Of a DNA stretch of 64,000 nt, positions 934 to 63,677 are shown piece by piece; within the stretch, counting starts at the first letter, position 1; every line of letters begins with the position of its first letter. The notes under the pieces are model-generated. The model had not been told where the DNA came from. It saw only the letters and a program-made list of their open reading frames with translations, and made no database searches. The DNA comes from Hydnum rufescens UP504. Lineage: Eukaryota > Basidiomycota > Agaricomycetes > Cantharellales > Hydnaceae. The stretch lies in contig MU129168.1 of the NCBI GenBank assembly GCA_014904985.1, forward strand, positions 4,943-68,942, in the 5' to 3' direction. Both the position numbers and the translations under genes were made by a program.

Positions 934-1010
934 CACCTTGGTCAGTCATCTAAGCCTACCTAGTTAGGTACCACTTTTGGGGCAGATAATGGTACCTAAG
1001 TAGGTCCCAT
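934..1010 (+). repeat. Left terminal repeat of array element C
   Basis: Starts CACCTTGGTCAGTCATC and continues to an imperfect GGTACCACTTT...AATGGTACC inverted block. The same terminus begins the elements at 34016, 43850 and 51482. Confidence 0.7.
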
Positions 1011-1330
1011 CACTATTCTGGCCAAAATGGCCATTTTATGGTCTGCACCTTCTGGCTCAGAATTGGCTGAAATGGCCAAAAATTGGCCGAAACTTGGCAG
1101 AAACTGGGACTTAGAGAGCATCTCAGACTTGCAGGACAGCAGGCCATGTGGGCTTATCGGGGATAATCACCAGTATTTATTATTATATTCCCCCCTCTGG
1201 TGTTTCATTTATAGTTATTTATTTATTATCATTATCACTCACCCCAGGTGGGGGCTGTTTTCATTTGGCAGTCTCATGTTTTTTTATCAACTTATGTATT
1301 TATTTATTTAAAAATTCAATTAACAAAACA

Positions 1331-3508
1331 TACCACACCCGCTAGGGCAGGTGTGGTACCATCTGTTGCTTCCTCGAGACTTTGGACGGGGGGTTGTCTG
1401 GTGTTCAGATGCAGGTTCAGGGGGCATGTTGCTGGGGTGTCGCGCAGCAAAATATTAAGTTAAAAAATTCAAAGCAGCACAAAAAGAGCAGCTATTGCTG
1501 CTCTTTTTGTGCCACTTGCAAATCAAAATCAAAATCAAAAACAGACCTTTTGTACCACACCCCCGCTGAGGGGGGCATGTGGTACTGGGCATTGCTGCCT
1601 TGGGGCTTGGATGGGGGCTCGCCCAGCTCATCAGTGGCCATTTGAGTGGGCTTGGCTTGGCTGTTCACTGTTGTGCAGGTCATTTGGGGGTTGCGGCTGT
1701 CTGTTGTCTTCATTTTGGGAGCTTCAAATTCAATCCTAGAATTGAATGATAATGAATGTTAGTAAAAAAATTCAAAGTGATGCCAAAGGGGCAGCTTGCG
1801 CTGCTCCTTTGGCATCATTGTAGATGTAGAAAGTTTAAAAAAAATACCTTGTAGTACCACACACCCGCATTGGCGGGGGTGTGGTACTCATTGTTGTCCG
1901 GGGTTGTGTACCTTCGACTGCCGGTTTTCTGTACAGTTCTCAGGTGGGTTGGGGGGGTTTTCAGGCACATACTCGTTTGGGGGGAAGGAAGATCTAGAAT
2001 ACAAAAATTTGGATCAGTACAAGTTAACACGATGCAAAAAGAGCTGCCTTCACAGCTCTTTTTGTGCCATTGGGGGTGCGTTACATTACATACCTTTTAT
2101 AGAACCACACACCCACTACTGTGGGTGTGTGGTTCATCTCTGTGTTTGGCATGTCATTGTTCACAGGGATGTTGTTGTTCTGGCAGGGCTTTGCAGGTCT
2201 TCATTTGTGGTGATACCTAGAATGAAAAATTATTAGTTAAAAAATTAAAAGCGATGCAAAAAGAGCAGCTTTCACTGCTCTTTTTGTGCCATTGGATACG
2301 GGAAAATAGCCTCCCTTAAATAGTACCAGATGCCACCATGGCAGGTGTCTGGTTTGCATTGGTTTTTCGTTTGGTGGGGTTTGGTGGTGCATTTGTTGGG
2401 TTTTCTTTTGGCATGGCTTCAGTTGGACTCTTGATTAGTAAAAAAATTCAAAGTGACACAATGGGAGCAGCTTGTGCTGCTCCTTTTGCATCGTTGTACA
2501 TATAGAAATCAAATAAACAAAATAAAAACCTTGTAGGACCACACCCACCAAAGTGGGTGTGGTCCTTGGTTTGTACCACAGTCATGTGGTTCGTACTTGG
2601 TACGGGGCTTGGTCGTCATGTTGGGGGTTTGAAGTCTCATGGGTTTTGTTTGGTGGGTCTGTTGCTGTTTTCGTGTGTTTGCTTGGTGGGGTCATGGGTT
2701 CAGACAACCTAAAATAATGTATAATACGTTAGTAAGAGGAAAAAAGAAAAGCCATGCAAAAGGAGCAGCATACACTGCTCCTTTTGCATGGTTATATGCT
2801 CACCTTAAAATTACCACACACCCACCGAAGCAGGTGTGTGGTTCGTCTCTTCATGTGGCACGTCATCGTTTGGGGGTCCCCTTTGTGGGTGTGTTATCAT
2901 TGTGGGGGGACTTGCTTCATGGGTCTTTGGTCTTCATTTGTGACAATACTGTACCTAGAATAAAAAATCATTAGTTAAAAATAATTAAAAGCAATGCAAA
3001 TAGAGCAGCTTTCACTGCTCTTTTTGCGTCGTTGGGGGTACATATCAAGTATAGAACCACACACCCGCTACTGCAGGTGTGTGGTTCATCTCTTTGTGTG
3101 GCATGTCGTCATTCGCAGATCCTGTTTGTGGGCATGTTATTGTTCTGGGGGGTTGCTTCGTGGGTCTTCATTTGTGGCAATACCTATAATAAAATAATAT
3201 TAGTTAACAAATGTAAAGCAATGCAAAAAGAGCAGCTTTCGCTGCTCTTTTTGTGCAGCTCCATCTATTGGGGGGGAGGAGACTCACCTTACAGTACCAC
3301 ACCCACTGCAGCAGGTGTGGTTCCTGAGCCCACTCATTGGGCAGCCTGTCGTTTGTTTTGGTTTTGACCTGGAAGAATAAAGGCTATGTTAGTATAAAAA
3401 TTCATAGCAGTGCAAAAAGAGTAGCTTTGCGCTACTCTTTTGTGCTATTGTATCTACTGAGACAAAATGTACCTTATGACCACACACCCACATCAGCGGG
3501 TGTGTGGT
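1331..3508 (-). repeat. Left array, ten hairpin-intron units
   Basis: H hairpins: 1331-1358, 1552-1585, 1853-1888, 2102-2135, 2324-2353, 2535-2566, 2813-2842, 3054-3087, 3296-3321, 3479-3508. S stems: 1477-1512, 1778-1817, 2034-2067, 2256-2289, 2455-2492, 2752-2791, 2996-3027, 3223-3256, 3412-3445. Read on the minus strand, each H is followed within about 10 bp by a GTGAGT or GTATGT-like donor. The S stem follows, then CTAAC/CTAAT (seen as GTTAG on the plus strand) and a TAG acceptor. CpG decay has changed many CCCGC arms to CCCAC. Confidence 0.75.
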
Positions 3509-3542
3509 TGTGTGGTTGTGGTCATGCAGTTGTGGTCATGCA

Positions 3543-3567
3543 GTGTTGCTGCTGCTGTTGCTGCTGT

Positions 3568-3599
<32 letters not shown>

Positions 3600-3640
3600 C
3601 TGTTGCTGCTGTTGCTGCTGCTGCCTGCTGTTGCTGTTGT
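3543..3640. repeat. CTG/TTG trinucleotide microsatellite
   Basis: An interrupted run of TGC/TGT triplets lies between the innermost H hairpin and the palindromic centre. In the sister element the same place has only a short CAG/CAA run (about 46920-46945), so the tract expanded in this copy. It gives open frames of poly-Cys, poly-Leu, poly-Ala or poly-Ser, none of which I accept as a gene. Confidence 0.9.
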
Positions 3641-3649
3641 GTCGTGGTC

Positions 3650-3965
3650 CGTGCAGTCACATTTCTGTTCCTGGGTGTGGCTGCGTAGTTGCGAATCGAA
3701 TGCCAGCAATTGCCAATACTCAAGAAGTGCCCAGCACTGGTGGGCCAATTCCGATGTGTAGAAGTGGCCCAATCCACTCTGCAATTTGCCATCTCATGCC
3801 TTATTGGGCTCTGACTCATTATCATCGCCTTCTTTGGGTGTTCCTGGACAAATATTTATTATATAGTATTTATTTTAAATATACACGCTTGGTACTATTG
3901 TGTGCTGTGCTTGCAGTGCCAGCGCTTGGGTGCTTCTTGAGTATCGGCAATTGCTGGTGTTGAAT
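3650..3965. repeat. Shortened palindromic centre of element C
   Basis: Contains parts of both arms seen complete at 46215-46900: a GTGGCCCAATCCACT block, a CCTTATTGGGCTCTGACTCA block and an AT-rich TATTTATTATATAGTATTTA block. The middle of the palindrome is deleted. CCAAT-type and TATA-like sequences here make it a candidate divergent promoter; that is inference. Confidence 0.6.
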
Positions 3966-4025
3966 CTGCATCTTGCTTCCATCTCTGCAACCAAAACAAG
4001 CAACCACCCTAAAAGGCAAGTGCAT

Positions 4026-5014
4026 GACCACACACCCACCTCTGCAGGTGTGTGGTCACAAGGTGAGTATTTTTTTTAGTAGATACAACGGTGCAAACAG
4101 AGCAGTGAAAGCTGCTCTTTTTGCGCTGCTTTGGAATTTTTTTACTAATGCACCTTTATTTATTTTAGATTGAGGCCTCACAACGAGAGCCCAAATGGGA
4201 ACCTGATGCATGGGAACATGACACGGCAGTGCAATGCACAGGAACGTGACACAGCAGCGCAACGTATGGCAATGCAACATGGCAGCACAGCGTATGGCAA
4301 TGTGATGGCAGTGCAATGCACGGCAACGTGACACAGCAACCCAATGACGCAATATATGGCACCATGCCAAACGAGGATGCGACCGTGTCAAATGATGTGC
4401 CAGGAATCACACACCCGCCACAGCGGGTGTGTGGTTCCATATCAGGTGAGTTCCTCCCCCCCCACTACCTACAGCCATGCAAAAAGAGCAGCGAAAGCTG
4501 CTCTTTTTGCATGTTCTTTAATTTTTAACTAATTTAAAAGTCATATCGTCTAGGTCTCGAGTCTCTTTGCAAATGAATACTGACGCAAAACCCCCTGCAA
4601 CCCCACTTATCGACACCCGAATGACGGGGCACAGAGAAGACCTGTATGACCAGTTGTACGGATGACCTGGAGTACATGGTCCCAGTACCCCACACTCCCA
4701 CAGCAGGTGTGGGGTACTACAAAGGTATGTCTCTTTTATTTTTTTTATTTCTTATTCTTGTGGTGCAAAAAGAGCAGCATAGGCTGCTCTTTTTGTGCTG
4801 CATTGCTGTTCTACTAACATTTCATCATTTATTTCTCTAGATTCTGAACCAGAACCCCTGTGAGCCCCCAAGCAGAACCTACTGAACGAGACGTGGCAAA
4901 CAATTACTGCGAACGAAGCCCCGCAAATGAAGACCAACCCCTTCAAGGGAGCGCCCAAATGGAACTGACCCCGACCGGGGCATATGGACCCCACCTGCTG
5001 CGGCGGGTGTGGTG
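4026..5014 (+). repeat. Right array of element C, four units
   Basis: H hairpins: 4026-4057, 4404-4437, 4685-4717 (a TACCCCACAC variant with matching change in the other arm), and about 4988-5014. S stems: 4093-4124, 4476-4513, 4765-4798. Donors follow H (AAGGTGAGT near 4060; AGGTGAGT near 4444). The exon-like block at 4190-4340 is expanded by degenerate repeats of CAATGCAACATGGC type. Confidence 0.75.
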
Positions 5015-5109
5015 GGTATATACAGGTGCATGGCCTGCATGAACTATGCCCCCCCCTGTGGTGGCAAACCCCAGGGGGGGGGATAATATGTATATAGCAT
5101 AATATGTAT

Positions 5110-5110
<1 letters not shown>

Positions 5111-5146
<36 letters not shown>
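5111..5146. repeat. AAT trinucleotide microsatellite
   Basis: About twelve AAT units just outside the last exon-like block. Similar AATAAT runs end other array halves (14910, 30485, 38205, 49240), so this AT-rich tail is a shared part of the element near its terminus. Confidence 0.9.
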
Positions 5147-5149
<3 letters not shown>

Positions 5150-5239
5150 GTAAACAAACAATAGTAAATAAACAAATAATCTAGCACAGCCATGGATTGG
5201 CCGATAGATGGCCAAAAAAACTGAATTGGAATGGCTTGA

Positions 5240-5332
5240 TTTCGGCCGAAAGGTCTGGGGGACCTCTTAGGTACCATTTTCTGCCCTGAAAGTGGTACCT
5301 AAATTAGGTCCCCTATGTGACTGACCAGCCTG
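5240..5332 (-). repeat. Right terminal repeat of array element C
   Basis: Reverse complement of the left terminus type: GGTACC...TTCTGCCC...GGTACC, then TGACTGACCAGCCTG. The same end closes the fold-back element at 36887 and resembles the end at 59318. Confidence 0.7.
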
Positions 5333-5445
5333 GGCAGGTCGGAGGTTTTCAATTCGCGGTTTGTGCAGGTTGTGGGTACAGACAGACAACCTACGATAAT
5401 AAATCAAATGTTAGTTGAGAGCCAAAATAAATAAAAAAGAAAAGC

Positions 5446-6103
5446 CATGCAAAAGGAGCAGCCTAGGCTGCTCCTTTTGCGTGATGGTAAGTACTTACCT
5501 TGAAAACCAACACACCCTTCAGCAGGTGCATGGTTCCTGTGGCTCTTGTGGTCTTCTGGCACGGTTTCAGTGGGTTATGATTTGGGGGTGGCATGCAGGT
5601 TGTTGTTTCAGGGAGGGGGGGTTTGTTTGGTGGGGGTTTCTTGTGGTTGAGGTGATGGTCTAGAATAAGAGATGATATATTAGTTAAAAATTAAAACCAG
5701 CCCAAAAAGAGCAGCATTGGCTGCTCTTTTTGGGCTATTAGAGGTGCATGATGGACTTACCTTACATAGAACCACACACCCGCCACAGCAGGTGTGTGGT
5801 TTGCATGGTCACTTGGTGGGTGCATTCTCACTTGTTGTGGCATCATTTGGCGTCTTTTTGTTTGTTGCATATTCGGTTGGCACATTGTCATTTGGACCCT
5901 GACTGTTCAGCCCTTGTCGTTGGCCAGTTTTTCTTTTGAGCCACCAGGCCATGATCTAAAATAATAAAGAATAACGTTAGTAATGATATTCAAAGCCATG
6001 CAAAAAGAGCAGCTTTTGCTGCTCTTTTTGCACTGGCATATCTGCTTCAATCAAAAAAAACTCACCTTACATGACCACACACCTGCTGCTGCAGGTGTGT
6101 GGT
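5446..6103 (-). repeat. Left array of element D, three units
   Basis: S stems: 5446-5482, 5700-5735 (flanks changed in step to GCCC/GGGC), 6000-6031. H hairpins: about 5509-5535 (one arm eroded), 5771-5800, 6074-6103. Minus-strand donors (ACTCACC on the plus strand at 6060) and GTTAG branch complements are in the expected places. Confidence 0.75.
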
Positions 6104-6149
6104 TGTTGGCTTGCCTCTCTTGGTTGTGTGTTTGGTGTGTGGCTGCGCA

Positions 6150-6600
6150 GTTGCGGAGAGTGCAACTCAATGCCAGCAAATGCTGGCACTCAAAAAGCAC
6201 CAAGTCCCATGGCCATGAGCACAATATAAATTAATAGCAAGCACCTAGACATGTTCTAAATACTAAATAATAAATATTTATCCAAAAATGTGAAAGAAGA
6301 TAACAATAATAAGTTAGGGCTCAATAAGGCATGATAGGCCTATATTATAAAGTGGATTGGGCCACTTCTATAGGTCAGAAGTGGCCCAATCCACTTTATA
6401 ATATAGGCCTATCATGCCTTATTGAGCCCTAACTTATTATCATTATCTTCTTTTGCATTTTTGGATAAATATTATTATTTAGTATTTAGAACATGTCTAG
6501 ATGCTTGCTATTAATTTATATTGTGCTTGTGGCCATGGGACTTGGGTGCTTTTTGAGTGCCAGCATTTGCCAGCATTGAGTTGCATTCTCTTTGCAACCA
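6150..6600. repeat. Palindromic centre of element D
   Basis: A near-perfect palindrome of roughly 220-bp arms around about 6373 (ACTTCT-ATAGGTC-AGAAGT). The arms contain CCCAATCC blocks and AT-rich ATTTAGTATTTA-like stretches. Units to the left read minus and units to the right read plus. A divergent promoter is the simplest role, but a recombination or replication product is possible. Confidence 0.75.
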
Positions 6601-6648
6601 CAACAACCACCCACTGCAACTGCCCAGAAAAGGAAGCAGGGCAACCAC

Positions 6649-7288
6649 TGTCAGGGCCACGCTGTGACAAGGGCACCAAACAAATGTAAACACAAATAAT
6701 TCCGGCTAAGTCCAGTGTAAGTCCGGCTAAGTCTGCAGGAATCCGGGCAAGAATGAGATAAGGAGGTTAGGGGTGTCGGAGGAGCAGTCCAGCAGCCTGG
6801 AAGGGACTAGGTGGAAATGAGCACAGCGGTCCTTAAGCTCATGGAGTCGACTGGATAATACTCGGAGCTGTAGTCCGGAGTAACAGCGGAAATCCTGAGA
6901 TTATGTAATATGAATACGGAATACATGAAGGCTGACCTGTAGTCTGGAGTAACAGCAGAAATCCTGAGAGACCAAAGCTGGGGTCTCTGGACTTCACTCT
7001 CGGACTACTTATACATGATGACTATACTATGGGGGAGTGATTGCTAAACTGTGGGTGGTTACAAGGGGGACAGGAACAGGAACAGGAACTTGGCCAGGGG
7101 ACAAACCGGAAGCAATGGGAAATGAAAGGGAAATGAAACCAAGATAGGGTTGGACCGGAGTCAAACCAGAAGCAAAGTGGACTTGGGCAAAGGAACTAAG
7201 TGGAGGACTGGACTGGAGGTGGGTGGACAAGGACCGGAGTGATCCGGAGTGGACTGGAGTTGACCAGAGTGAGGGGCAAACCCTGACA
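6649..7288 (-). mobile_element. Solo LTR of the gypsy family
   Basis: A 640-bp copy in reverse orientation relative to the element at 7777-14008. It begins TGTCAGGG, ends CCCTGACA, and is flanked by the 5-bp duplication ACCAC (6644-6648 and 7289-7293). The paralogous site near 63348-63385 has no insertion. A solo LTR is the usual result of LTR-LTR recombination. Its TATAAG-like promoter and R start are present in reverse. Confidence 0.92.
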
Positions 7289-7311
7289 ACCACCCAAAAA
7301 GGGAAGCAGAT

Positions 7312-7771
7312 GACCACGCACCTGCCGCTGCAGGTGTGTGGTCATATAAGATGAGTTTCTTTTTTTATTGTAGTAGCTACAATAGTGCAAAAAGAGCAGC
7401 CGCTGCTGCTCTTTTTGCACTCCTTTAGATTTTTTTACTAACATATCTTTTATTGTCTTTTATTATTCTAGATCACAGCCTGGTCAAGGCATGGTGGGGC
7501 CTCGTCAAATGACGCTGGCCCAAACAGAAACACGAGAAAAAAGAACATGGCACACAAGAATGTGGCACATGAGAATGCGGCACATGAGGATGTGACACAC
7601 GAGAATGTGCCCAATGCACCAGACGTGCCCAATGAGTGAACCAGAGACCACACACCCACTGTGGTGGGTGTGTGGTACTATATAAGGTGAGTCCTCCCCC
7701 AAATTGATACAGCTGCACAAAAAGAGCAGTGAAAGCTGCTCTTTTTGTGCTGGTTTTAATTTCTAACTAAT
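7312..7771 (+). repeat. Right array of element D, first part
   Basis: H hairpins 7312-7343 and 7647-7676; S stems 7385-7420 and 7715-7750. The second intron-like segment has its CTAAC at 7763-7767, directly before the gypsy insertion. The exon between carries degenerate repeats of CACATGAGAATGTGG type (7540-7605). Confidence 0.75.
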
Positions 7772-7776
7772 GTATC

Positions 7777-8357
7777 TGTCAGGGTTTGTCCCTTCCTCCG
7801 GTCCACTCCAGTCCACTCCAGTCCACTCCGGATCACTCTGGTCCTTGTCCACCCACCTCCAGTCCAGTTCTCTGCTTAGTTCCTTCACCCAAGTCCACTT
7901 TGCTTCTGGTTTGACTCCAATCCAACCCTATCTTGGTTTCATTTCCCTTTCATTTCCCATTGCTTCTGGTTTGTCCCCTGGCCAAGTTCCTGTTCCTGTT
8001 CCTGTCCCCCCTTGTAACCACCCACAGTTTAGCGATCACTCCCCTGTAGTATAGTCATCATGTATAAGTAGTCCGAGAGCGAAGTCCAGAGACCCAGCTT
8101 TGGTCTCTCAGGATTTCTGCTGTTACTCTGGACTACAGCTCCGAGTATTATCCAGTCGACTCCACGAGCTTAAGGACCACTGTGCTCATTTCCACCTAGT
8201 CCCTTCCAGGCTGCTGGACCGCTCCTCTGACATCCCTAACCTCCTTATCTCATTCTTGCCTGGATTCTTGCGGACTTAGCCGGACTTACACTGGACTTAG
8301 CCGGAATTATTTGTGTTTACATTTGTTTGGTGCCCTCGTCACAGTGTGGCCCTGACA
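7777..8357 (+). repeat. 5' LTR of gypsy element
   Basis: Starts TGTCAGGG, ends CCCTGACA. It differs from the 3' LTR by scattered substitutions and a small indel near 7905 versus 13548, so the insertion is not very recent. It contains the promoter described at 8063. Confidence 0.95.
8063..8106 (+). promoter_or_regulatory. LTR core promoter and predicted transcript start
   Basis: TATAAG at 8063-8068 lies 33 bp before AGCTTTGGTCT at 8096-8106. That 11-mer is exactly complementary to 8360-8370, just inside the element. If transcription starts at 8096, the RNA 5' end could pair there and prime reverse transcription, as known for Tf1 of fission yeast. Confidence 0.65.
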
Positions 8358-14013: not shown

Positions 14014-14882
14014 TGCTTTTCCAGGTTGTTGGCTGACCCACAACCAACGAATGGAACACATGCCTGCCAAGTAAAGACCTGCCAAATGAACCCCGAGCCC
14101 CCGAAACAACTGCACACCACACAGACACCCGCTAGACGGTAACCCATGCCCCGAAGGCCACATGCCAAATGAACACTGCATGTGAAGGACCACACTGAAG
14201 ACACAAAATGACGCAGAACCAACAAAACCACACACCCACTGCGGCGGGTGTGTGGTACTCCAAGCTGAGTTTATTTTTTATTTTTTATTTTATTTTTGTT
14301 GCACAAGAAGAGCAGTGTAAGCTGCTCTTCTTGCGATGCTTTAATGTTTAATAACTAACACCTTTATTTTCTAGATCTTGAACCCTGCACAAACCCCCAA
14401 CAGCAAACCCACAACCTGAAACCCTGCAAACTGAAACCCATGACCCAAAGCCCCATGACCCCAAACCCACCCTGCAAAACCAAATCCTGTGAATGAAACC
14501 ACAAATGTGTGAGTACCACACACCTGCTGTGGTGGGTCTGTGGTACTCTCAAGGTAAGTTTTTTTTTCTGGAGCTACAATTGTGCAAGAAGAGCAGCCAT
14601 GGGCTGCTCTTCTTGCACTTTATTACATTTACCTAACACATTGTTTATTTTAGGTGACAAAATAACCTCCCCCTAGACAGGAACCCGTGCGAACTCCCAA
14701 ATAAGCCCCCATGAGATGTGCGCACTGGGCCCACACAAATAGGCAAATGGGGCCACATGAACGCATGAACAGGATCCCATGCAAACACACCCGTGCTGTG
14801 GCGGGGGTGATCATTTAAGGTATGCATTTTCCATTTTGCTCCAAGTGTGCAAGAAGAGCAGCCTCTGGCTGCTCTTCTTGGG
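14014..14882 (+). repeat. Right array of element D, continued
   Basis: Resumes with the acceptor TTTTCCAG (AG 14023-14024) of the interrupted intron. H hairpins: 14227-14256, 14512-14547, about 14785-14812 (eroded). S stems: 14301-14334, 14582-14618 and about 14847-14882, all with the A-to-G change AAGAAGAGC balanced by GCTCTTCTT. The exon 14376-14553 opens with G|ATCTTG like the exons at 29532 and 30231. It has one TGA and no TAA or TAG in that frame. Confidence 0.75.
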
Positions 14883-14965
14883 TGCATGGGTGAGCCTAGT
14901 GTACTGTATATAATAATAATAATAAATTAATTAATTAATAATAAATCAATAATCCTAATGGCTAG

Positions 14966-15105
14966 GGCCCCTGGGCTGCTTGACCAGCCCCCTCGACTGA
15001 ATTGCAGGGGCCCCTGGGGGCCCCCGGGTCTGATATCTAGTTAGAGCATATAAATGCAACCTTCAAACTATCTAATTAGATACTGATAATTGGCTGACCA
15101 GGCTG
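14966..15105 (+). repeat. GC-rich right terminus, TTGGCTGACCAGGCTG
   Basis: Two GGGGCCCCTGGG-rich blocks, a TCTAGTTAGA/TCTAATTAGA pair and the end TTGGCTGACCAGGCTG. The same terminus ends the array at 30533-30633. Confidence 0.65.
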
Positions 15106-46900: not shown

Positions 46901-46967
46901 TGCAACCACACGACCACGACACAACAGCAACAGCAGCAGCAGCAACACCGCACGACCATGACCACAT

Positions 46968-49143
46968 GACCACACACCCGCTGATGCGGGTGTGTGGTCA
47001 TAAGGTACGTTTTGTCTCAGTAGATACAATAGCACAAAAGAGTAGTGCAAGCTACTCTTTTTGCGCTGCTATGAATTTTTATACTAATGTAGCCTTTATT
47101 ATTCCAGGTCAAAACCAAAACGACAGGCCGCCCAATGAGTGGGCTCAGGAACCACACCCACTGCGGCGGGTGTGGTACTGTAAGGTGAGTCTCCTCCCCC
47201 CCAATAGATGGAGCTGTGCAAAAAGAGCAGCAAAAGCTGCTCTTTTTGCGTCACTTTACATTTGTTAACTAATATTATTTTATTATAGGTATTGCCACAA
47301 ATGAAGACCCACGAAGCAACCCCCCAGAACACTAACACACCTGCAAACAGGATCCATGAATGATGACATGCCACACGAAGAGACGAACCACACACCCACA
47401 GTAGTGGGTGTGTGGTTCTATACTTGATATGTACCCCCGACGACGCAAAAAGAGCAGTGAAAGCTGCTCTTTTTGCGTCACTTTTAATTATTTTTAACTA
47501 ATGATTTTTATTCTAGGTACAGTATTGTCACAAATAAAGACCGAAGACCCGTGAAGCAAGTCCCCCCACAATGATAACACACCTGCAAAGGGGACCCCCG
47601 AATGACGACATGCCACATGAAGAGACGAACCACACACCCGCTTCGGCAGGTGTGTGGTAATTTTAAGGTGAGCATATAACCACGCAAAAGGAGCAGCATA
47701 TGCTGCTCCTTTTGCGTGGCTTTTCTTTTTTCCTTTTACTAACATATTATACATTATTTTAGGTTGTCTGAACCCACAACCCCACCAAGCAAACACATGA
47801 AAACGGCAATGGACCTGCCAAATGAAACCCATGAGACTTCAAACCCCCAACATGATGACCAAGCCCCATACTGAGTACGAACTGCATGACCACGGTACAA
47901 ACCAAGGACCACACCCACTTCGGTGGGTGTGGTCCTACAAGGTTTTTATTTTATTTATTTTATTTCTATATGTACAACAACACAAAAGGAGCAGCACAAG
48001 CTGCTCCCTTTGCATCACTTTGAATTTTTTTACTAATTGAGAGTCCAACTGAAGCCATACCAAAAGAAAACCTGACGAACGCACCACCAAACCCCGCTGA
48101 ATGAAAAACCAATGCAAACCAGACACCCGCCATGGCGGGCGTCTGGTACTATTTAAGGGAGGCTATTTTCCCATATCCAATGGCACAAAAAGAGCAGTGA
48201 AAGCTGCTCTTTTTGCATCGCTTTTAATTTTTTAACTACTAATTTTCATTCTAGGTATCACCGCAAATGAAGACCCACGAAGCGCCACCAGAACGACAAC
48301 ATCCCTGTGAATGATGACATGCCAAACACAGAGACGAACCACACACCTGCAGTAGCAGGTGTGTGGTTCTATACAAGGTATGTAATGTAATGCACCCCCA
48401 ACAGTGCAAAAAGAGCTGCAAAGGCAGCTCTTTTTGTGTTGTGTTAACTTGTACTGATCCAAATTTTTTGATATTCTAGATCTTCCTTCCCCCAAATGAG
48501 TATGTGCCCGAAAACCCCCCCAACCCACCCGAGAACTGTACGGAAAACTGGCAGTCAAAGGTACACGACCCTGGACAACAACAAGTACCACACCCCCACC
48601 AATGCGGGTGTGTGGTACTACAAGGTATTTTTTTAAAAACTTTCTACATCTACAGTGATGCCAAAGGAGCAGCACAAGCTGCCCCTTCAGCATCACTTTG
48701 AATTTTTTTTACTAATGTTCATTATCATTCAATTCTAGGATTGAATTTGAAGCTCCTGAAACAAAGACAACAGACAGCCGTGACCCCCAAACAACCCGCA
48801 CAACGGTGAACCACCAAGCCAAGCCCACTCAAATGGCCACCGATGAGCCGGGCGAGCCCCCATCCAAGCCCCAAGGCAGCAATGCCCAGTACCACATGCC
48901 CCCCTCAGCAGGGGTGTGGTACAAAAGGTCTGTTTTTTGATTTTGATTTTGATTTGCAAGTGGCGCAAAAAGAGCAGCAATAGCTGCTCTTTTTGTGCTG
49001 CTTTGAATTTTTTAACTTAATATTTTGCTGCCCAACACCCTGCAACATGCCCCCTGAACCCACATCTGAACACCGGACGACCTCCTGTCCAAAGTCTCAA
49101 GGAAGCAATGGATGGTACCACACCTGCCCTAGTGGGTGTGGTA
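46968..49143 (+). repeat. Right array of element O
   Basis: H: 46968-46999, 47151-47176, 47385-47418, 47629-47658, 47905-47936, 48118-48147, 48336-48369, 48585-48618, 48889-48922, 49115-49143. S: 47032-47066 (GAGTAG/CTACTC), 47218-47249, 47442-47479, 47680-47719, 47980-48016, 48182-48217, 48404-48438 (GAGCTGC/GCAGCTC), 48656-48696, 48963-48998. Order and spacing mirror the left arm and element C. Confidence 0.8.
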
Positions 49144-49378
49144 TGTTTTTTTAATTGAATTTTTAAATAAATAAATACATAAGTTGATAAAAAAACATGA
49201 GACTGCCAAATGAAAACAGCCCCCACCTGGGGTGAGTGATAATGATAATAAATAAATAACTATAAATGAAACACCAGAGGGGGGAATATAATAATAAATA
49301 CCAGTGATTATCCCCGATAAGCCCACATGGCCCGCTGTCCTGCAAGTCTGAGATGCTCTCTAAGTCCCAGTTTCTGCC

Positions 49379-51481
49379 AAAAAGAGAGAGATCAAACCCA
49401 AAAACCCACAAACTTTTAATTTCCCCAGGAACTTCAAAATTCATAATACCCGACACCCCAGCCAGGTCATCTCGATCTCCCCATCCCTTTCCGGATGATT
49501 CTAATCTGACTCAGAACATGACTGATTGGGGGAGCCCCAGGAACGAGACTAGTGATAACCAATTATCAGCATATTCCAAAACAATTCAATATCACTCCTG
49601 GAACCGACGCTGCCCACTTGCCGTGGCTTGCCGTGAGCGTAAGCACAATTAATATGCAAATACATAATCCAGGACGCGGAAGGAAATACGTACCTGCTCA
49701 ACAAAATAAACCCAATGAACTAAGCCCGAGGGATGACATGACCGATCATGTCAGGTCATTAATTTAGGCGAAAAGTCAATATTTGAGAGCCTAATACAAC
49801 TAAAGGACGGCGATGAAACCAGACTGGACGCAATGGGAAAAGGCAATTCAAAGCGACTGCAAATGCCTCCAGGAAAAAAGGGACCTGGAGACTTGAATCC
49901 TTACCTGCGGACCGACAGGCAATCGGGCAATTGTTGGACAATTCAAAAAGAAATTTGATGTCGATGGGAATCTATCACGATTACAAAAGCCCGATTAGTC
50001 GCTTCAGGATTCACTCAGAATCCCCAGTCAGATTTCGACCCAGGACATTTTCTCCGGTAAAGGGGTGCGCATGGACTCATTCATAACTAATTCGCTACCG
50101 GCGCATCCTAGAACCTTGAAATTGGGTCAAATGGACATAAGGGGCCGGCTATATTTAAATGGTGACCTACACGAATCTTATAATAACATGCAACAGCCCA
50201 AGGGATATGAAGATGGGAACGAACAGAGTCGCCCCGATTGGTGCCACTCTACGGGCTTTAAACAATCAGGCCCGAGAATGGACAATCAATTGCTTACATA
50301 ACAGCACCTTTAAAAAACCCGGTTGCCGAAATGATCACTGCGTTTACATAAGGCGCAAAGGCAAAGAATTTGATATAATTGCCATTTGGGTAGTGATTCA
50401 TCTTCATCTCAATCATCCAAGGCGCCGATTAGATGCAGCCCAAGGATGAAATCAGACGCGATTGAGACCCACGGACCGGGGACACCACGTCTATTACTTG
50501 GAATTGAAATCCAATAGAAACGATAAAGGAAAATCGATCATGACCTCAGAGGTCAATATATTAGGAAATCCTGAATCAATACAACATGTCCCAAAGCAGA
50601 ACATCTTGTCCACATCCCTACCGCTTCCATCCAGTGTCTCAACCCAACAAAGACGATAATATTCGACGACCCAGATTATATCGGGCAGTCCATTAGGCCC
50701 TTGATGTATGCCGCTATTGGAACATGACCCGACATTGCCTTATGCAATACAATCCCTGTCTCATTTTCCCACAATCTGACATATGAACATTGGATGCAGC
50801 AACACCTAATTAGTATCTACCAAGGAACTAAAGATCATGGCGGAATACTACGATCAACTGCAAGGGGAGCGCCACCATAGCCATATCCGGATTTTCCGGA
50901 TGCCTGATTGGCGTCAAACGAATTGAATCAGAAATCAATTTCCGATATACCTTTTTTATCCGGCGGAGAGCAATATCATGGACTTCCAAGAAGGCAGTCC
51001 CATTGTGGCCCTAATCATCGATGGAGGCAGAATATTATTGCTGCTACCTTAGCTACAAACACAAATAATAATCGGCTAACGAAACTTCTCCGATGCCCTA
51101 AGGATTTTACCCCAATCGACCTTCGGGAAACTATCATTGATAATCAATCGGCAATCGCACCTGACCAGAAAACCCCCAATTTTCAATGTGTGATCAAACA
51201 CATTGAGGCAATTTCATTTTCATTTGGAAACAATAACACAAGCGCATAGCGACCAAGTCCATTGGTGCCCTAACAAACGAAATGACCGCGGACCATATTT
51301 ACCAAAGTCCACTCCTGTGCCCGAAACTCGAACATTCCGGACCGGACTTAAGGAATGGCATCGGTCTGCAGGGGGAGTATTGGAATGAATCATCCGATAT
51401 GGGAATAAACCCGAACCTCCGGAAAGATCTAAGACTGTCCCAGGGACGCGTTATAGGCCGTCTACCATCCGTTATTCCCCG
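49379..51481. other. CpG-rich region, no recognised gene
   Basis: It begins abruptly where array element O is cut and ends at the start of another array terminus (51482). CpG is common and the base composition differs from both neighbours. Short plus-strand frames (50159-50449, 50908-51249) contain RVAPIGATLRALN, which faintly resembles the VGA..HR.LN module of 39192-43682. It could be a less decayed part of that element family. I see no catalytic motif and no RNA gene. Confidence 0.4.
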
Positions 51482-51638
51482 CACCTTGGTCAGTCATCTA
51501 AGCCTACCTAGTTGGTACCACTTTTGGGGCAGATAATGGTACCTAAGTAGGTCCATCACTATTCCGCCGAAATGGCCATTTTACGGTCTGCACTTCTGGC
51601 TCAGAATTGGCCGAAATGGCCGAAAATTGGCCGAAACA
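51482..51638 (+). repeat. Left terminus of another array-type element
   Basis: CACCTTGGTCAGTCATC followed by the GGTACC...GGCAGATAATGGTACC block and GGCCGAAATGGCC repeats, as at 934 and 43850. It runs into the assembly gap. Confidence 0.75.
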
Positions 51639-52278
51639 NNNNNNNNNNNNNNNNNNNNNNNNNNNNNNNNNNNNNNNNNNNNNNNNNNNNNNNNNNNNNN
51701 NNNNNNNNNNNNNNNNNNNNNNNNNNNNNNNNNNNNNNNNNNNNNNNNNNNNNNNNNNNNNNNNNNNNNNNNNNNNNNNNNNNNNNNNNNNNNNNNNNNN
51801 NNNNNNNNNNNNNNNNNNNNNNNNNNNNNNNNNNNNNNNNNNNNNNNNNNNNNNNNNNNNNNNNNNNNNNNNNNNNNNNNNNNNNNNNNNNNNNNNNNNN
51901 NNNNNNNNNNNNNNNNNNNNNNNNNNNNNNNNNNNNNNNNNNNNNNNNNNNNNNNNNNNNNNNNNNNNNNNNNNNNNNNNNNNNNNNNNNNNNNNNNNNN
52001 NNNNNNNNNNNNNNNNNNNNNNNNNNNNNNNNNNNNNNNNNNNNNNNNNNNNNNNNNNNNNNNNNNNNNNNNNNNNNNNNNNNNNNNNNNNNNNNNNNNN
52101 NNNNNNNNNNNNNNNNNNNNNNNNNNNNNNNNNNNNNNNNNNNNNNNNNNNNNNNNNNNNNNNNNNNNNNNNNNNNNNNNNNNNNNNNNNNNNNNNNNNN
52201 NNNNNNNNNNNNNNNNNNNNNNNNNNNNNNNNNNNNNNNNNNNNNNNNNNNNNNNNNNNNNNNNNNNNNNNNNNNNNN
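51639..52278. other. Assembly gap (N)
   Basis: 640 undetermined bases. The left terminus before it and the array unit after it suggest a collapsed repeat array. The open frames crossing it consist of unknown residues and are not genes. Confidence 0.99.
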
Positions 52279-54952: not shown

Positions 54953-57900
54953 ATGGCCAACAAAGGAAAGAGAGGAGGACCAAGCCAGCTGACTACACCA
55001 TCCCTCCCATCCCACATCACCCTGCCAGTAAAGTCTTCAGGTCTGTCTGCTAAATCCAGTAAACATCCCAGTTGAGGACAATTTCCAAAGGCTGAAATTA
55101 TTGGTCAAGGCCCCTCAGGACCCATATATACAGGGGATTGTAGTGTATCTACATGAGGTACTCCACAATCTGAGGATCTCCACCATGCCATTCCTTCTGA
55201 TTTCACAGCAATGTACCCACTGAATCTGGACTATGATCCCTATTTGGTCCCTGAGATGCACATGCACTATCTAGCAAAAGAGTCAAGGCATGTGAGATGC
55301 AAACATGTGCAAGCCACTCACTGGAGCCAAAACTGTCCTTCCTGCTCTCATCAGACCCTTCATGCAGTGGAAGTGTGAGCAAATGTTGTCACAACAGACA
55401 CCTGCCTTGCAAAGGGGGACTGATAATAGCATGTGCTCCTGCTCCAGTCATCACCAGCCTCTGAAGGTTGTGTGTGTATTGATTGAAGGTGTGCTCACTC
55501 TCCATTACTTATAGCTGACGCCTGTTTGTTTATGCTTACAACTTCAATCTAGCTCTTTGTGATGTTGATATCACTGTCTGCACCTGCCACCCAGCCCCAC
55601 AACAGCTGGTGCAGATGGGGTACTTCCCTTGCTCACCAGTCTATCCTATGCTTGCTGTGAGCCTGGAAATGCTCGAGCTTGTCTCTACCCTTTTCGTCCT
55701 TGCTGTGCCTAATGAAAGAGCATGGGCCACTACAATAACGAAATACCTCAAGAACCATGGCCATGAATTTGCTACCAGAGATGCTCTGCAATGTCAATTT
55801 TCATCCGCCCTTTCCCAGTATCAAGTTCTGATGCAACTGGTGGATGGGGAGATGGGTAAAATCATTGATGATGCAAGGGAGAAGACTACTGCGATGTTCA
55901 GGGCTCTCGATGATGAGATGCCTGTTCATGGGCAAGAGTATGCAAATGTGCAGATGTTGGCTGGTCACATTCAAATTGCATGTGATGATATCAGTCACCC
56001 ATCAACCCCTCCACCTTGAGAAAGACCCAGCACCAATCTCCGTGATGCCTGCCCCCTTTGCTTTGGTGGTGATCTGGATATAGTAACACCTAGAGTCCAT
56101 CTCATTGTGTGCCTCAATGCCAACTTCCAGTTGAAGAGGAACAGGGACAAAGATAGAAGAAAGGAGTTTGCAGGCCTACCAGGATCTTTGGATCCTAAAG
56201 TTGTCTCACCGAGAACAATCTTCCTCAGTGAAGTGCAGATCCGGGAGTGGGAAGAGAGGGTCAAGGTTTTGTGACCATCCAAACCAAAGATGGGTCATAA
56301 GCAGAAAGCTGGCCAGATGGAGGAGACCGAGGGTGATTTGATGGGTGGAGGATGGCCTGACAAGATTGAACTGGGTGTGAACTTACCCAATGCAACTTAT
56401 GATGCCTGTAGAGACTCCTTTGTGGCTGCCAATGGTGACTGTATCAAGGCATCGTCCACATATTTTGACTCGACTGGTGTGATGGCCTTGCTCTGTCATC
56501 ATGATCATCCCCTGGTACTGGCAAACCTGAAAACAGCTGGTGAAAAACAGTTCTATGCCCTTGCTCTCATATCTGCCTTGATGGAGTCAATTCCTAACCA
56601 TTGGAGAGTTGGAGTTCTCTATGATATTGGGTGTCAGATGCATAGGACACTTCAAAAATGGGACCTCATGCCTGAATATCTGCATCAACTCAAATTCACT
56701 GTCTCAATATTCCATGCCTATGGACACCAATGGGCATGCCAATTGTGGTATCACCCTTGGAAGGCTGTGATGTGGGGTTTATCTGATGGAGAGGGGTGTG
56801 AACGCTTCTGGAGTGATCTTCAGAAGCTTATCCCAGGTCTCCATATCACAGGTGTGAGTTGGAGTTGGTGATTGCATTTGAATGTTACCTGTATTCCTTA
56901 CCAAGTTTTTCTTCTAGCATCACTGTTGTCTTTTCATTCTTGATCACCAAGCTGAGCACATCCTTGAGACAAAACATGAGGGGGTGGGAAGGTGGTTGTG
57001 TGACTGGGTCTGTCAAGCTGATGAGTGGCTTGGTGAAGCCTTGATGGCTGTGGGGAAGCATCCCCATGGGTTGGATGTGGAAGGGCTCCTTGTGCAGTTC
57101 AATGAACAGTGGGAGTTCCAAACCAAGTCTGTTGATTGTGAGTAGATTATTTGCATATGCTTTATCATGATAGTAATAATTGGCTGTCTTAGGGCAATCA
57201 AAAACAAAGGGAACACAAGTGATAGAGCAAATTCTATCCCTTGAGACAACAGTCCAATCCCAACATGCAATAATTGTACACCTCTCAAAGTAATTAGGGA
57301 GTTTGGCAGTGAATGATAGTGTTGGGGGGCAGGCTTTGCATGAGGACTGGAAGGAGAGGGTGAAGATGGCCCAAGACACTATATCACAACTTGAAGACAA
57401 TATTGCAAGGAAAACCAAGGCACTTCGACTTGAAGACCATGCATTGGCAGACCATCTTGCCAACCTCAAGAAGGACAAATGGATCAACCTACAACTCAAT
57501 ATCCATGTCCTTCATGACCAGCTAATCACAAAACTCCATGCTCACAAATTTGAGCTTGCCAACTTAGAGTGTGCACATGCAAGTCAGGCCATGGGTATGT
57601 GTGCAAAATTTTATGTCTGATTTCATGTCTATAATTGATTGGACTCCAGATCAGAAAACCAAGAGCCATGTCAAAAAGGTGGTTAAACAGCATGCCCCAG
57701 GAATCAAGGCTACAGTCCACAAATACAATGCCAAGCAGAAGGAAATGCTGAAGGGGCAAGGGAAGAATGGTGTATGGAGGGATGCATATGTTCCACCAGA
57801 GCTTGTGATGGAGGGATTATTCAATTTGGACATCAATCAGGACATTTGGGAGAATGCTGACATGGTGGACTTTGAGGGGGGGAGATTCCTTTGTGGCTTG

Positions 57901-59021
57901 CTAATAAGGAGGTTCAGGATGGAATTAGGGCAGCCCATGTTAGTGGTATATAAGCCCGGCTGGTACTTGGCTTTACTGACGTCCCTAGTTGCTCAATCTT
58001 AAATGTACTTCATGCAATCTTACTATTTCCCTTCTTTTCTATTTCACAACCAAGCACCAGTGGAAAGCTTCTCCACAGGAGTTTGGTGCTGCCCCAGTTT
58101 TAGCTAGTATTCGTCTTCTTTACGTAAGCAGACTCGTATAGCTAGACTGGGTATTACCGAAATGTATCCTTTTTTCCACTCTAAACTGCTAACGGCAGCG
58201 TGCTGAACCAGCACACTACCCTCCAAGCATCGGGCGGTCTAGACCATGAACTCACCTTCTCCTAAGGAGTCACCTGACTCGTTCATCCATAAGAGAACCC
58301 GACATACGGACTCCCACCACCCCTTGGGGAACCTGTCTGCTGTAATCTCCTCTTCACAGATCCCTACAACCTTTCCCCAGACCCTATGGCTCCCAGACCT
58401 CATGACTAAGGGCATCAAACCCAGTCCAGAGCCCCCTCCTCAGGTCTCCAGACCATTACTGCCTAATTCGGTTACTCCTGAATTAACAGCCCAGGAGGTC
58501 AAAAGTTGTCAAGAAGAGCTTTGCCAATGTGATGTTGAGTATTCAAACCTTCATGCTTGGTTTGTTGAGGAATATGAAGCAGTCCACAACATATTCAAGT
58601 TCAGCAATGGTGTGAGTCTTCAATACTCTTTCCTGATTTGGAAGCTTATTATAATGTCCACAAAGATGATGATGTAGTGTTCTTTGCATTGCTTCACTTG
58701 CATGTTCTCTTTAACAGGATGAAGACATGGGAACACAGCCTTGCTACAATCACTATTCCTGTGGGTGCAGTAGATTGGAGTTGGATTTCAATGCCACCAC
58801 CTGTCAACCATCCTTGGACATGCAGGAAAGCCCTACAAGGCATCCCACAGCTGGGGGAAAGAGATGAGGATGGGGACACGAGCTCTGATGATGATGATGG
58901 GGTTGAGCTAGAGCCAGTTGCAGAGTTAGAGGATGTCAGATTTCTAGGTGACTTGGATTGTCTGATTGGTGAGGGTGATTGGTCTGAGGGAGAGGGACAA
59001 GACAATGTAATGGTAGATTTA
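54953..59021 (+). pseudogene. KDZ (Kyakuja/Dileera/Zisupton) family transposase
   Basis: Start ATG 54953 (MANKGKRGGPSQL). Cys cluster: CSCSSHH..LKVVCVLIE, then intron 55489-55552 and LCDVDITVCTCHP. The core has FDSTGVMALLCHHD (about 56466), AGEKQFYALALI, YDIGCQMHRT (56620), FHAYGHQW and SDGEGCERFW (about 56781). These carry the Asp/Asp/Glu residues of the KDZ catalytic core. Introns with in-frame joins: 56854-56917, 57138-57309, 57595-57649. The C-terminal part has KTKSHVKKVVKQHAPGIK, WFVEEYEAV and an acidic tail ending at TAG 59021. Stops are TGA at CGA positions, for example 56272. A solo LTR (57938-58488) splits the last part, and the frames on its two sides differ by one base. KDZ enzymes cut and paste DNA elements and are greatly expanded in mushroom genomes. 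This copy is dead. Confidence 0.93.
57938..58488 (+). mobile_element. Solo LTR, type 2, inside the KDZ gene
   Basis: 551 bp, TGTTAGTGG...TTAACA, with the 5-bp duplication GCCCA (57933-57937, 58489-58493). GTATATAAG at 57946-57954 is a plausible TATA box. The AGCTTCTCC...AGGAGTTTGGTGCTGCC block is shared with 18412. It keeps more CpG than the surrounding KDZ gene, which suggests a later insertion. Confidence 0.9.
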
Positions 59022-59318
59022 TAGACTTCATCCTCAGTGTCATGCACAAGTTCAGAATTCTGCTAAGTGCTCTGAGTTGGGTCCAAGTCTTCCTTGTGTT
59101 CAGCAAAACCCAGGAAGTCACCTATTTGGGGCCAGTTGAGTCCAGTTGAGCCCAGTTAAGCCCACTTGGGCCCAGATTTGGGCACAACATTGTTCTCCAT
59201 ACCATAATCAATCAATTTTGGGTGCACATTGGGCCCAACTATATATTGATCTCCATAGGTACCTATTCTGCCACAGTTTTGTGCCTTAGATTGATGTAAA
59301 ATATGGCTGACCAGCCTG
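59022..59318 (+). repeat. Right subterminal region and end of the KDZ-bearing element
   Basis: Repeated CCAGTTGAG / CCCAGTTAAGCCCA / TTGGGCCC motifs at 59135-59180, then GGTACCTATTCTGCC (about 59260-59275) and the end ATGGCTGACCAGCCTG. The GGTACC/TTCTGCC block and the end match those of the array and fold-back elements. The only matching left end upstream is at 51482, but the 8-bp flanks (ATTCCCCG and ATAGTTGT) do not agree. Confidence 0.6.
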
Positions 59319-60011: not shown

Positions 60012-60190
60012 TCAGACACTGGAAGCTAATCTGGCTTCAGCCAACTCATTCACTTCTCATTTGCTAGCCCTTCCTCTGCATCATTGTGCCTTTGGACTAA
60101 GAGGATTATAGTTAGTTGGGGTTGTAGGTTGAGATGAAGACCTAGGAACAAATAATGTGTTAGTAAAAGAAAGAAGAAAAAAAAGAAAGT

Positions 60191-60911
60191 CACACAAGAG
60201 GAGCAGCATACACTGCTCCTTCTGCATGGTTGTACTTACCTTAAAATTACCACACACCTGCCAAAGCAGGTATGTGGTTCGTTTGGGGTCCCCACAGCCT
60301 TGTGCCATGCATTCCCATTCCTGGGTTTCATCTGGGGGGTGTTCTTGGCATGTCATGTTTTGGCCTCTGGTTTGGCAGGCATGTTTAAATAAAAGATATG
60401 TTAGTATCAATGATTCAAAGCAGCACAAAAAAAGTAGCTTTCACTGCTCTTTTTGCGCCACTGTATTTATGGTAATAAAAACATACCTTATATTACCACA
60501 CACCCACCTTGGCAGGTGTGTGGTTTATGTGGTTATTCATTTGGTGGGTCTTCACTTGGCAGGTCTTGTTTGGCAGGTTGTGTTTGGTGGGCTTTTGTTT
60601 GGTGGTTGGCTGTTTGGGAGGGGGGGTTCTTTGGGTGTGCATTCATTTGGTGGGTTCTGGTTCAGGCAATGTCCTAGAAAAATCAATAATATGTTAGTAA
60701 GAAATCATAACCAGTGCAAAAAAGAGCAGCATTTGCTGCTCTTTTTGCACAGTTGCATACACTACATTTACTTACCTTATATATTACCACACACCCACTG
60801 TGGTGGGTGTGTGGTTCATTTGGGGCATTCTCAGTGTGTGGTTTACACCTCATTTCCAGTCCTGGTTTGGTGGCTTGGCATTTGGGGGTTGTGTTTGGCT
60901 CATGTCTGTGC
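60191..60911 (-). repeat. Left array of element T, outer units
   Basis: S: 60191-60228, about 60421-60457, 60714-60750. H: 60248-60278, 60495-60524, 60786-60815. Minus-strand donors (TACCTTA) and GTTAG branch complements are in register. Confidence 0.75.
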
Positions 60912-62283: not shown

Positions 62284-62401
62284 GCACAGTGGTTTGTTGT
62301 CTTGGGGGCTTGTTTGGTGGGTCCTTACTTCATGGGTCCTGGTTCAGGTGACCACCTAGGACAGCACATAAAGATTTAGTTAAGAATTAAAACTAAAACT
62401 G

Positions 62402-62820
62402 GTGCAAAAAGTGCAGCAAACACTGCACTTTTTGTGCTGTTGGGTGAACTGAATCATTTACCTTATATAGAACCATGCACCTGCTGTGGCAGGTGTGTGG
62501 TTTGTACAGTCATTTGTTGGGTGTGTTCTCACCTATTGCAGTCTTGTTGGTGGTGTTTTTGTTTATTGTTTTGTCATTTGTGTTTTTTCCCCATGTGTTA
62601 CCATTTGGGCTTTGGCCATTCACACAGCTGTTGTTGGGTAGGGTCCCACCTTATGCCCCAGATCAGGCCACAATCTAAGATAATAACAATTCATTAGTAA
62701 AGAAATTTAAGGCAGTGCAAAAAGAGCAGCTTTCACTGCTCTTTTTGCACCATTGTATCTGCTTCAATCAAAAAAACTCACCTTACATGACCACACACCC
62801 ACTGCTGTGGGTGTGTGGTC
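62402..62820 (-). repeat. Left array of element T, inner units
   Basis: S: 62402-62437 (GTGCAG/CTGCAC, both arms changed) and 62715-62750. H: 62471-62502 and 62789-62820. Confidence 0.75.
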
Positions 62821-62849
62821 ATTGGCTTGCCTCTCTAGGCAGTTGCCTG

Positions 62850-63330
62850 TTCAGTGTGTGGCTGCATAGTTTTGAAGAGAGCACAACTCAACACTGGCAA
62901 ATGCTGGCACTCAAAAAGTGCCCAAGTCCTGTGGCCATGAGCACAATATAAATTAATAGCAAGCATCTAGACATGTCCTAAATACTAAATAATAAATATT
63001 TATCCAAAAATGCGAAAGAAGATGACAATAATAAGTCAGGGCTCAATAAGGCACAATATGCCTATATTATAAAGTGGATTGGGCCACATCTATAGGTCAG
63101 AAGTGGCCCAATCCACTTTATAATATAGGCATATTGTGCCTTATTGAGCCCTGACTTATTATTGTCATCTTCTTTCGCATTTTTGGATAAATATTTATTA
63201 TTTAGTATTTAGGACATGTCTAGATGCTTGCTATTAATTTATATTGTGCTCATGGCCACAGGACTTGGGCACTTTTTGAGTGCCAGCATTTGCCAGCATT
63301 GACTTGTGCTCTCTTCACAACTATGCAACC
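62850..63330. repeat. Palindromic centre of element T
   Basis: Arms of about 230 bp around 63091, almost the same sequence as 6150-6600. It is flanked by a minus unit on the left and a plus unit on the right. Confidence 0.8.
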
Positions 63331-63393
63331 ACAACAACCACTGCAACTGCCCAGAAAAGGAAGCAGGGCAACTGCCTGAAAAGGGAAGCAGAT

Positions 63394-63677
63394 GACCACA
63401 CACCCACTGCTGCAGGTGTGTGGTCATATAGGATGGGTTTCTTTTTTTATTGTAGTAGCTACAACAGTGCAAAAAGAGCAGCCACTGCTGCTCTTTTTGT
63501 GCTCCTTTAGATTTTTTTACTAACATATCTTTTATTATCTTTTATTATTCTAGATCACAGCCTGGTCAAGGCACAGTGGGACCTCATCAAATGACATGGG
63601 CCCAAACAGAAACATAAGAAAAAGAACACAGGACACAAGAATGCAACACATGAGAACACAACATAAGAACATGACAC
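63394..63677 (+). repeat. Right-arm unit of element T
   Basis: H 63394-63425, S 63467-63502, CTAAC at about 63518, acceptor TTCTAG ending 63553. The exon block is cut by the next LTR at 63678. Confidence 0.75.

Follow-up and report, generated by a model that had tools for sequence, protein, structure and literature searches.

Foldback-type transposons such as Galileo and Tetris of Drosophila and Tm1 of nematodes carry long inverted arms with internal repeats (Galileo, PMC3573991; also PMC4079207 and PMC3169594), Galileo belonging to the P superfamily in the part of this literature drawn on here and Tm1 to Mutator/Foldback by the title of its report. Fungal introner-like elements and symmetrical stwintrons are repeated spliceosomal introns with internal inverted repeats, the former described as having inverted repeats or stable structure in the part of the account drawn on here (PMC8469720). 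Transposons of the Kyakuja-Dileera-Zisupton type (KDZ, PF18758) make target duplications of 8 bp in Zisupton and one Dileera family and of 7 bp in Kyakuja, whose ends read CA...TG, according to the main text of a recent study, in which the word hairpin does not occur (PMC12730594, drawn on in part). Here we analyse a 64,000-nucleotide stretch of the Hydnum rufescens UP504 genome (assembly GCA_014904985.1, contig MU129168.1, numbered C260 here, positions 4,943 to 68,942), hereafter the window, which belongs to a genome of 63 Mb in 539 contigs and contains arrays of repeated units that each bear two hairpins. These units probably form the inside of a non-autonomous DNA-transposon family that is mobilised by KDZ-type transposases and makes intron-rich non-coding RNAs. 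The features that point to this reading are the element ends, four target duplications, the orientation of the arrays, their splice-type signals, the lack of a coding signal and covariation in aggregate, while transcription, splicing and mobilisation in trans are inferred.

The two hairpins of a unit, H at the end of a predicted exon and S within a predicted intron, have arms that are near-perfect palindromes, and a stem scan found 127 hairpins in the window, many of them of the H or S type, with H and S together spanning 1477 to 63503. A first-pass annotation had reported about 65-70 such units and a set of variants in which both arms change together. The hairpin units as a whole are confirmed, and every listed variant was recovered by the scan: for S, GAGTAG/CTACTC at 3415, 31575 and 47036, GGGCAG/CTGCCC at 20409, GTGCAG/CTGCAC at 62400, GAGCTGC/GCAGCTC at 2033 and 48401, and AAGAAGAG/CTCTTCTT at 14304 and 29459; for H, CCAGACGCCC/GGGTGTCTGG at 45235 and TACCCCACAC/GTGTGGGGTA at 4684 and 37778. 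A sequence-only profile made from 35 seed units was searched against the window and 20 fetched loci, and its 930 hits yielded 345 full-length units (profile start at or before 15, end at or beyond 125) that were used here. The window holds 57 of these and at least five partial units (14781, 30393, 37426, 38087 and 52479), close to the number first proposed, and the median unit period is 247 bp. The placing of H just before the donor also held: a donor-like GT is present in 284 units, and in 221 of these the first one follows H at 6-10 nt. The units do recur, as the description of them as a dispersed family implied, but they are not free-standing and appear instead to be the internal part of a KDZ-type transposon. 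An Rfam scan of the window returned 0 families at gathering score.

Alignment of the 345 units revealed a single order of elements, namely a conserved H, AAG/GTRWGT, a T-rich stretch, S, CTAAY and TTCTAG/R (slashes marking the predicted splice sites), bordered by exon columns that are unconserved in contrast to the hairpins and splice signals. A strict test, which called for a GTRNG donor no more than 24 nt downstream of H and for CTRAY followed by YAG, found the donor in 197, the branch point with acceptor in 302 and both in 186 of the 345 units on the sense strand, against 13, 2 and 0 on the antisense strand and about 20, 14 and 1 in mononucleotide shuffles; the corresponding counts among 85 cluster representatives were 52, 70 and 44 against 3, 2 and 0. 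Donor, branch point and acceptor are therefore ordered on one strand, as in spliceosomal introns. Their top-base frequencies (0.89-0.98 for branch CTAA, 0.96/0.87 for acceptor AG and 0.87/0.94 for donor GT) compare with a median of 0.66 over the 81 unpaired columns, among which the most conserved are those of the branch, acceptor and donor and a few T-rich columns. On the sense strand T makes up 10.7% of exons and 43.6% of introns. The one-strand order of the signals, this contrast between T-poor exons and T-rich introns and the unconserved exon flanks suggest that the anatomy of exon end plus intron, as first described, is well supported. Between quartiles of CpG content we observed no trend in donors or acceptors, the donor count here using a cruder cut of the gap from H than the strict test, and pairing was little changed; GNRA loops fell from 0.57 to 0.30 with age, as predicted from CpG decay of the loop.

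The larger setting of the units points to a transposon. In a self-comparison of the window the arrays pair up in inverted orientation around palindromic centres, and they run outward from a centre whose sequence is preserved across 51 aligned arm copies and includes TATA-like and CCAAT-like motifs. The ten elements examined measure 4.3-6.5 kb, contain 8-13 S and 6-14 H hairpins by a strict pattern, and have the long, internally repetitive inverted arms of foldback elements. Their longest stop-to-stop frame is 236 amino acids, short of a KDZ transposase, so that the array elements are non-autonomous at most. For the left-type end, beginning CACCTTGGTCAGTCATC, first-look candidates numbered 698, and the 40 matches scored among them have starting points that differ by no more than a few bases. 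The right-type end, beginning CAGGCTGGTCAGTCACA, has 40 matches, drawn from 668 candidates, that are 95-100% identical over 127-128 of its 128 nt, besides one weak partial match, and this identity points to probable recent activity of the copies. Three array-bearing elements among the fetched loci, L040 (AAATGGAG), L041 (TTACTGTT) and L043 (GGGAATGT), lie between perfect 8-bp target duplications, and a fourth such duplication flanks an array-free element of the window at 34016-36887 (CACCAATG); a duplication at L036 agrees in 7 of 8 positions, and none was found for the copy at 934..5332. CpG observed/expected varies strongly between copies, from 0.29 to 1.02 among the ten elements, and is consistent with methylation-driven decay; CpG density reaches 10 per 100 bp in the exons of the copy richest in CpG.

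The termini connect these elements with KDZ transposases. KDZ matches in the genome number 154, with 150 of 584 candidates scored, and include an intact copy on contig C1 with a 981-amino-acid frame, whose right end reads CAGGCTGGTCAGTTATATACCCTACCTAAGTTAGGTACC... (CAGGCTGGTCAGTTA...). This end recurs at 22 places with at least 94% identity, and 10 of the 22 (on C1, C131, C146, C157, C299, C300, C309, C424, C499 and C67) have a listed KDZ domain at a distance of 1.46-1.50 kb and are oriented as expected, which argues that it is a true end of a KDZ family. Compared with it, array elements are 76-79% identical over 71-89 nt at their right ends and 79-84% identical along 62-68 nt at their left ends (E values 5e-16 to 2e-8), and the right end of the array-free element at 34016-36887 is 82% identical over 90 nt. 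The CA...TG ends, the 8-bp duplications and these related termini place the array elements as non-autonomous KDZ-type transposons, which would be mobilised in trans by a KDZ transposase; they differ from KDZ elements proper in having no transposase or any long frame and in an interior made of hairpin-intron arrays. The window itself carries a broken KDZ copy at 55519..59318, with a domain match at E 6.5e-46 and, as the best named match of its frame, a Hydnum rufescens protein 92% identical over 65% of the frame. A search for a left end or target duplication of this copy found no left end, and none was found in the piece examined beside another KDZ copy on C163 (L057). At a further locus, L038:58-164 matches the end of the intact copy at 96% identity and forms a KDZ-type end; this end points away from the neighbouring KDZ domain, and the left end of an array element follows about 350 bp further on.

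Selection on the structure of the hairpins is suggested by how they have changed. Clustering at 80% identity gave 85 representatives, of which 84 were aligned (L050:8851-8987, a distal unit, was left out), and across 31 pairs 89.9% of cells are paired. Two-sided change was found in 23 of the 31 pairs, all five covariation measures lay above 500 of 500 shuffles, and a slid control in which the partner was moved by 1-3 columns brought pairing to 34-54%. On a FastTree tree, coincident two-side changes fall on 56 branches against 28.2 expected, and the pair is kept in 38 of these 56 compared with 2-3 in slid controls. The claim that pairing survives sequence change thus appears to stand in aggregate, and the structural constraint that it implies is likewise supported in aggregate, single pairs being individually non-significant. 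Some hairpin features differ between the strands. The S loop has four bases in 59 of the 84 representatives, with GNRA in 20 on the splice-sense strand and in 1 on the antisense strand, and the commonest loops with their closing pair among the 345 units are CGAAAG (70), CGCAAG (35) and TGAAAG (34), counts that are inflated by shared descent. Non-CpG mismatches comprise 36 G.U and 13 A.C in H (p 0.0014) and 113 G.U and 43 A.C in S.

Under the transposon reading, a typical copy is a near-palindrome with a conserved central inverted repeat, two outward arms and KDZ-like ends, and in each arm about 3-9 exon-intron units follow one another in tandem. The centre, with its TATA-like and CCAAT-like motifs, may be a bidirectional promoter giving two outward non-coding RNAs. 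Each unit of ~250 nt would consist of an unconserved T-poor exon ending in H and a small spliceosomal intron of about 95-140 nt, in which S, often GNRA-capped, would lie between donor and branch point. Arrays would lengthen through tandem duplication of whole units, and selection on the active lineage would maintain H, S and the splice signals, with dead copies decaying neutrally at CpG. Dense, efficiently spliced introns would keep the element transcribed and outside stalled-spliceosome RNA interference (RNAi), and such an anti-RNAi role is the likeliest function that we can put forward, on present analysis a tentative one. In the basidiomycete Cryptococcus, poor splicing signals in transposon transcripts stall spliceosomes and feed small interfering RNA and RNAi, as described in the part of that work drawn on here (PMC7763443), so that strong introns might protect transcription; SCANR, the pathway concerned, would thus give a transposon reason to splice well, but it is a host pathway and not an element, and it is known from Cryptococcus. 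The wider idea, that thousands of outward-transcribed exon-intron cassettes act as a non-coding RNA device with an anti-silencing effect through splicing or through the exonic H hairpins, is a speculative possibility about which we remain doubtful. We know of no described counterpart of a splicing-based anti-silencing strategy.

A number of observations weigh against this reading, and several of them bear on its alternatives. On the transposon side, the end motif lies to the right of the left end at 15 of the 20 loci, with a perfect target duplication in only three array elements and, L036 apart, none found at the others of these 15, and the comparison with KDZ termini used one end of the intact element. 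The end of the window KDZ copy shares mainly its outermost 15 nt with array elements (60% over the first 75 columns). A second end type (CAGCCTGGTCAGCCAATTATC...), at 15105 and 30633, likewise has mainly the outermost 15 nt in common (47-48% across the first 75 columns), so that at least two diverged end lineages appear to carry arrays. As for the hairpins, they could be a device at the level of DNA, serving as binding sites or cruciforms for transposase or replication, with splice-like motifs inherited by duplication only. The near-perfect palindromic arms and the palindromic form of whole elements, like that of foldback transposons, would suit such a device, and so would the inner S stem, where 35 G.U and 34 A.C mismatches show no strand bias and indicate that the apparent bias of S comes from its outer pairs only. 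The distal left-arm-type units (1455-1588, 44363-44495 and 48886-49020, and at the equivalent position in other copies) have a canonical donor in 0 of 18 cases, 12 of them reading GGTCTG, with a loose branch-acceptor match left in 12 of 18 and H weakened to 10.2 of 13 pairs; S is nevertheless kept at 15.6 of 16 pairs and may therefore act without splicing. Among all 345 units the strict donor is present in only 197, and 61 show neither GTR nor GCRAG within the first 30 nt. Where one side of the CpG at the H tip has decayed, the two mismatches are equally frequent (G.U 49, A.C 49), as neutral decay of dead copies would give. Where both sides have decayed, the paired state CA/TG (47) is in excess and the other paired state TG/CA (17) is not, beside TG/TG (18) and CA/CA (13); the excess fits one compensated state inherited from source copies, or compensation there. 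Yet the donor, branch and acceptor columns stand far above the median unpaired column in conservation, the splice signals follow one another correctly on a single strand, strand bias is seen both in GNRA loops and in the wobble pairs of H, and the arrays extend beyond the subterminal zone, all of which makes a DNA-level device unlikely in our judgement.

Somewhat harder to credit is a passive satellite, in which tandem duplication and conversion spread the units, conservation reflects common descent and the hairpins have no function. A tandem duplication at 47218-47658 that takes in an exon is what such a satellite would produce, and the tests of single pairs agree with it: in the branch test 1 of 31 pairs reached p<0.01 and 0 passed Bonferroni correction, an R-scape-like G-test against a null built on the tree found 0 pairs significant, and RNAalifold on the 84 units was weak (7 pairs at -1.62 kcal/mol, each of them in S and none in H), misaligned rows being a likely reason. 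A satellite would not account for exon flanks that are unconserved beside conserved hairpins and splice signals, nor for two-sided change in so many pairs with coincident branch changes at about twice expectation. Very unlikely, in turn, are introner-like elements, that is, mobile introns spreading singly and here accumulated in arrays: an S hairpin does lie inside each predicted intron, but the exon-side H belongs to the repeated unit, the recent duplication takes in an exon, and the one isolated genome match examined (L058) sits in an array by eye. Least probable of all is a protein-coding gene, split into many small exons and either decayed or evolving fast, even if donors and acceptors look genuine and the 15-bp period of some exon repeats (e.g. 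7548-7609) is readable as codon repeats, since other exon repeats have periods of 14, 26, 28 and 58 bp. In-silico splicing of seven elements covered all of their 14 arms but the right one of L043, where usable introns numbered fewer than two. The 13 spliced arms have mixed exon phases and many exon lengths that three does not divide; the longest open reading frame lay within the range of 50 shuffles in 12 of the 13 arms and in one slightly exceeded it (139 against a shuffled maximum of 136). With these frames, and none above 236 amino acids in the ten elements, the coding hypothesis was rejected.

Relative to the systems described at the outset, the likely novelty of the KDZ-type element lies in a combination. 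Foldback arms are known, as are structured repeated introns, and what appears to be new from the sequence is their joining in one KDZ-type element; introner-like elements and stwintrons sit singly in host genes at new positions, whereas here the unit and its exon duplicate in tandem inside a transposon. We know of no foldback-type element with exon-intron repeats and covarying hairpins and, to our knowledge, none combines foldback repetitive inverted arms with structured repeated introns; no described equivalent of a hairpin-intron transposon was recognised by title among the papers listed in literature searches. If splicing is confirmed, structured introns carried by transposons and constrained in structure would number in the thousands within one fungal genome, and would offer a natural experiment on the effect on splicing of hairpins placed beside donors and between donor and branch point. 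A non-autonomous DNA transposon would then also prove selectable for an elaborately spliced non-coding RNA, with a bearing on the way in which genome defence in fungi senses the quality of splicing and on the origin of new introns.

The family is large. Exact S cores number 2,783 in the 63-Mb genome, against 0 for a reversed-pattern control, and mostly cluster among the places listed first. Chance does not account for this contrast, nor for that of the full set of splice signals with the antisense strand and with shuffles. The window and the 20 loci contain 164 exact cores beside their 345 full-length units, from which a rough extrapolation gives ~6,000 units in the genome, a figure that may be biased because the loci were chosen by their well-matching ends. 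The S core also occurs in four viral contigs, where the profile match is limited to the palindrome (profile positions 79-106); these were set aside as unrelated palindromes, perhaps terminators, and one exact form of the H core was found in 0 viral contigs.

Table 1. Array elements and related features, in window coordinates (strand "." where a feature has no single orientation).
Feature	Position	Strand	Remarks
Transposon copy 1	934..5332	.	left end CACCTTGGTCAGTCA..., right end ...TGACTGACCAGCCTG; left array on minus strand, centre-derived sequence from ~3741, right array on plus strand
Left-arm H-S array of copy 1	1455..3516	-	oriented leftward
Right-arm array of copy 1	4021..4831	+	three H-donor-S-branch-acceptor units (4024, 4401, 4683)
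Second palindromic array pair	5385..7778	.	minus units 5385-6109, central palindrome 6340-6406, plus units 7308-7778; broken by long terminal repeat (LTR)-related sequence 6649-7288 and Ty3/gypsy element 7777-14009
Array resumed beyond gypsy insertion	14223..15105	+	two full-length and one partial unit; ends ...TTGGCTGACCAGGCTG at 15105
Lone diverged unit	20361..20513	-	S stem GGGCAG/CTGCCC
Array of four units	25899..27054	+	by profile
Array with centre-derived leader (28625)	28625..30633	+	four full-length and one partial unit (29019-30457)
End of second type closing array 28625..30633	30633
Three-unit array	30923..31667	-
Centre palindrome and plus array	32924..38164	.	palindrome 33254-33317, plus array 33651-38164, split by 2,872-bp insertion 34016-36887
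Array-free foldback (palindromic) element	34016..36887	.	KDZ-like termini of like kind; 8-bp target duplication CACCAATG
Second large copy	43850..49380	.	left end 43850, minus array 44363-46179, central palindrome 46525-46588, plus array 46964-49020
Further left end	51482..51640	+	runs into N gap
Broken KDZ transposase copy	55519..59318	+	CxC1 cysteine cluster; KDZ domain in frame 56275-56868; end ...ATGGCTGACCAGCCTG at 59318
Minus array of three units	60148..60817	-
Minus units, central palindrome and plus unit	62362..63536	.	minus units 62362-62825, palindrome 63062-63128, plus unit 63390-63536

Several of the arrays are interrupted by other insertions, among them the Ty3/gypsy element and the 2,872-bp array-free element, which sits inside an exon of an array. 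The copy at 43850..49380 is richer in CpG by eye and has its right arm cut off at 49380. The Ty3/gypsy-like retrotransposon at 7777-14009 has reverse transcriptase and RNase H (Pfam) and direct LTRs of ~0.58 kb; LTR-related sequence lies at 6649-7288 and 24080-24739, and part of a second, inverted Ty3/gypsy-like copy at 24364-25832. A large near-perfect palindrome at 20820-23470, centred near 22120 by eye and with outer parts common to 603-922, looks like another foldback element. Remnants of HECT-domain (ubiquitin ligase) genes occur in opposite orientation at 17000-17452 (+) and 41653-42069 (-), adjoined by mutually similar repeats at 18293-18796 and 38700-39220. An AT-rich repeat of ~0.43 kb, 89% identical between its copies at 1-423 and 19865-20312, adjoins two array regions.

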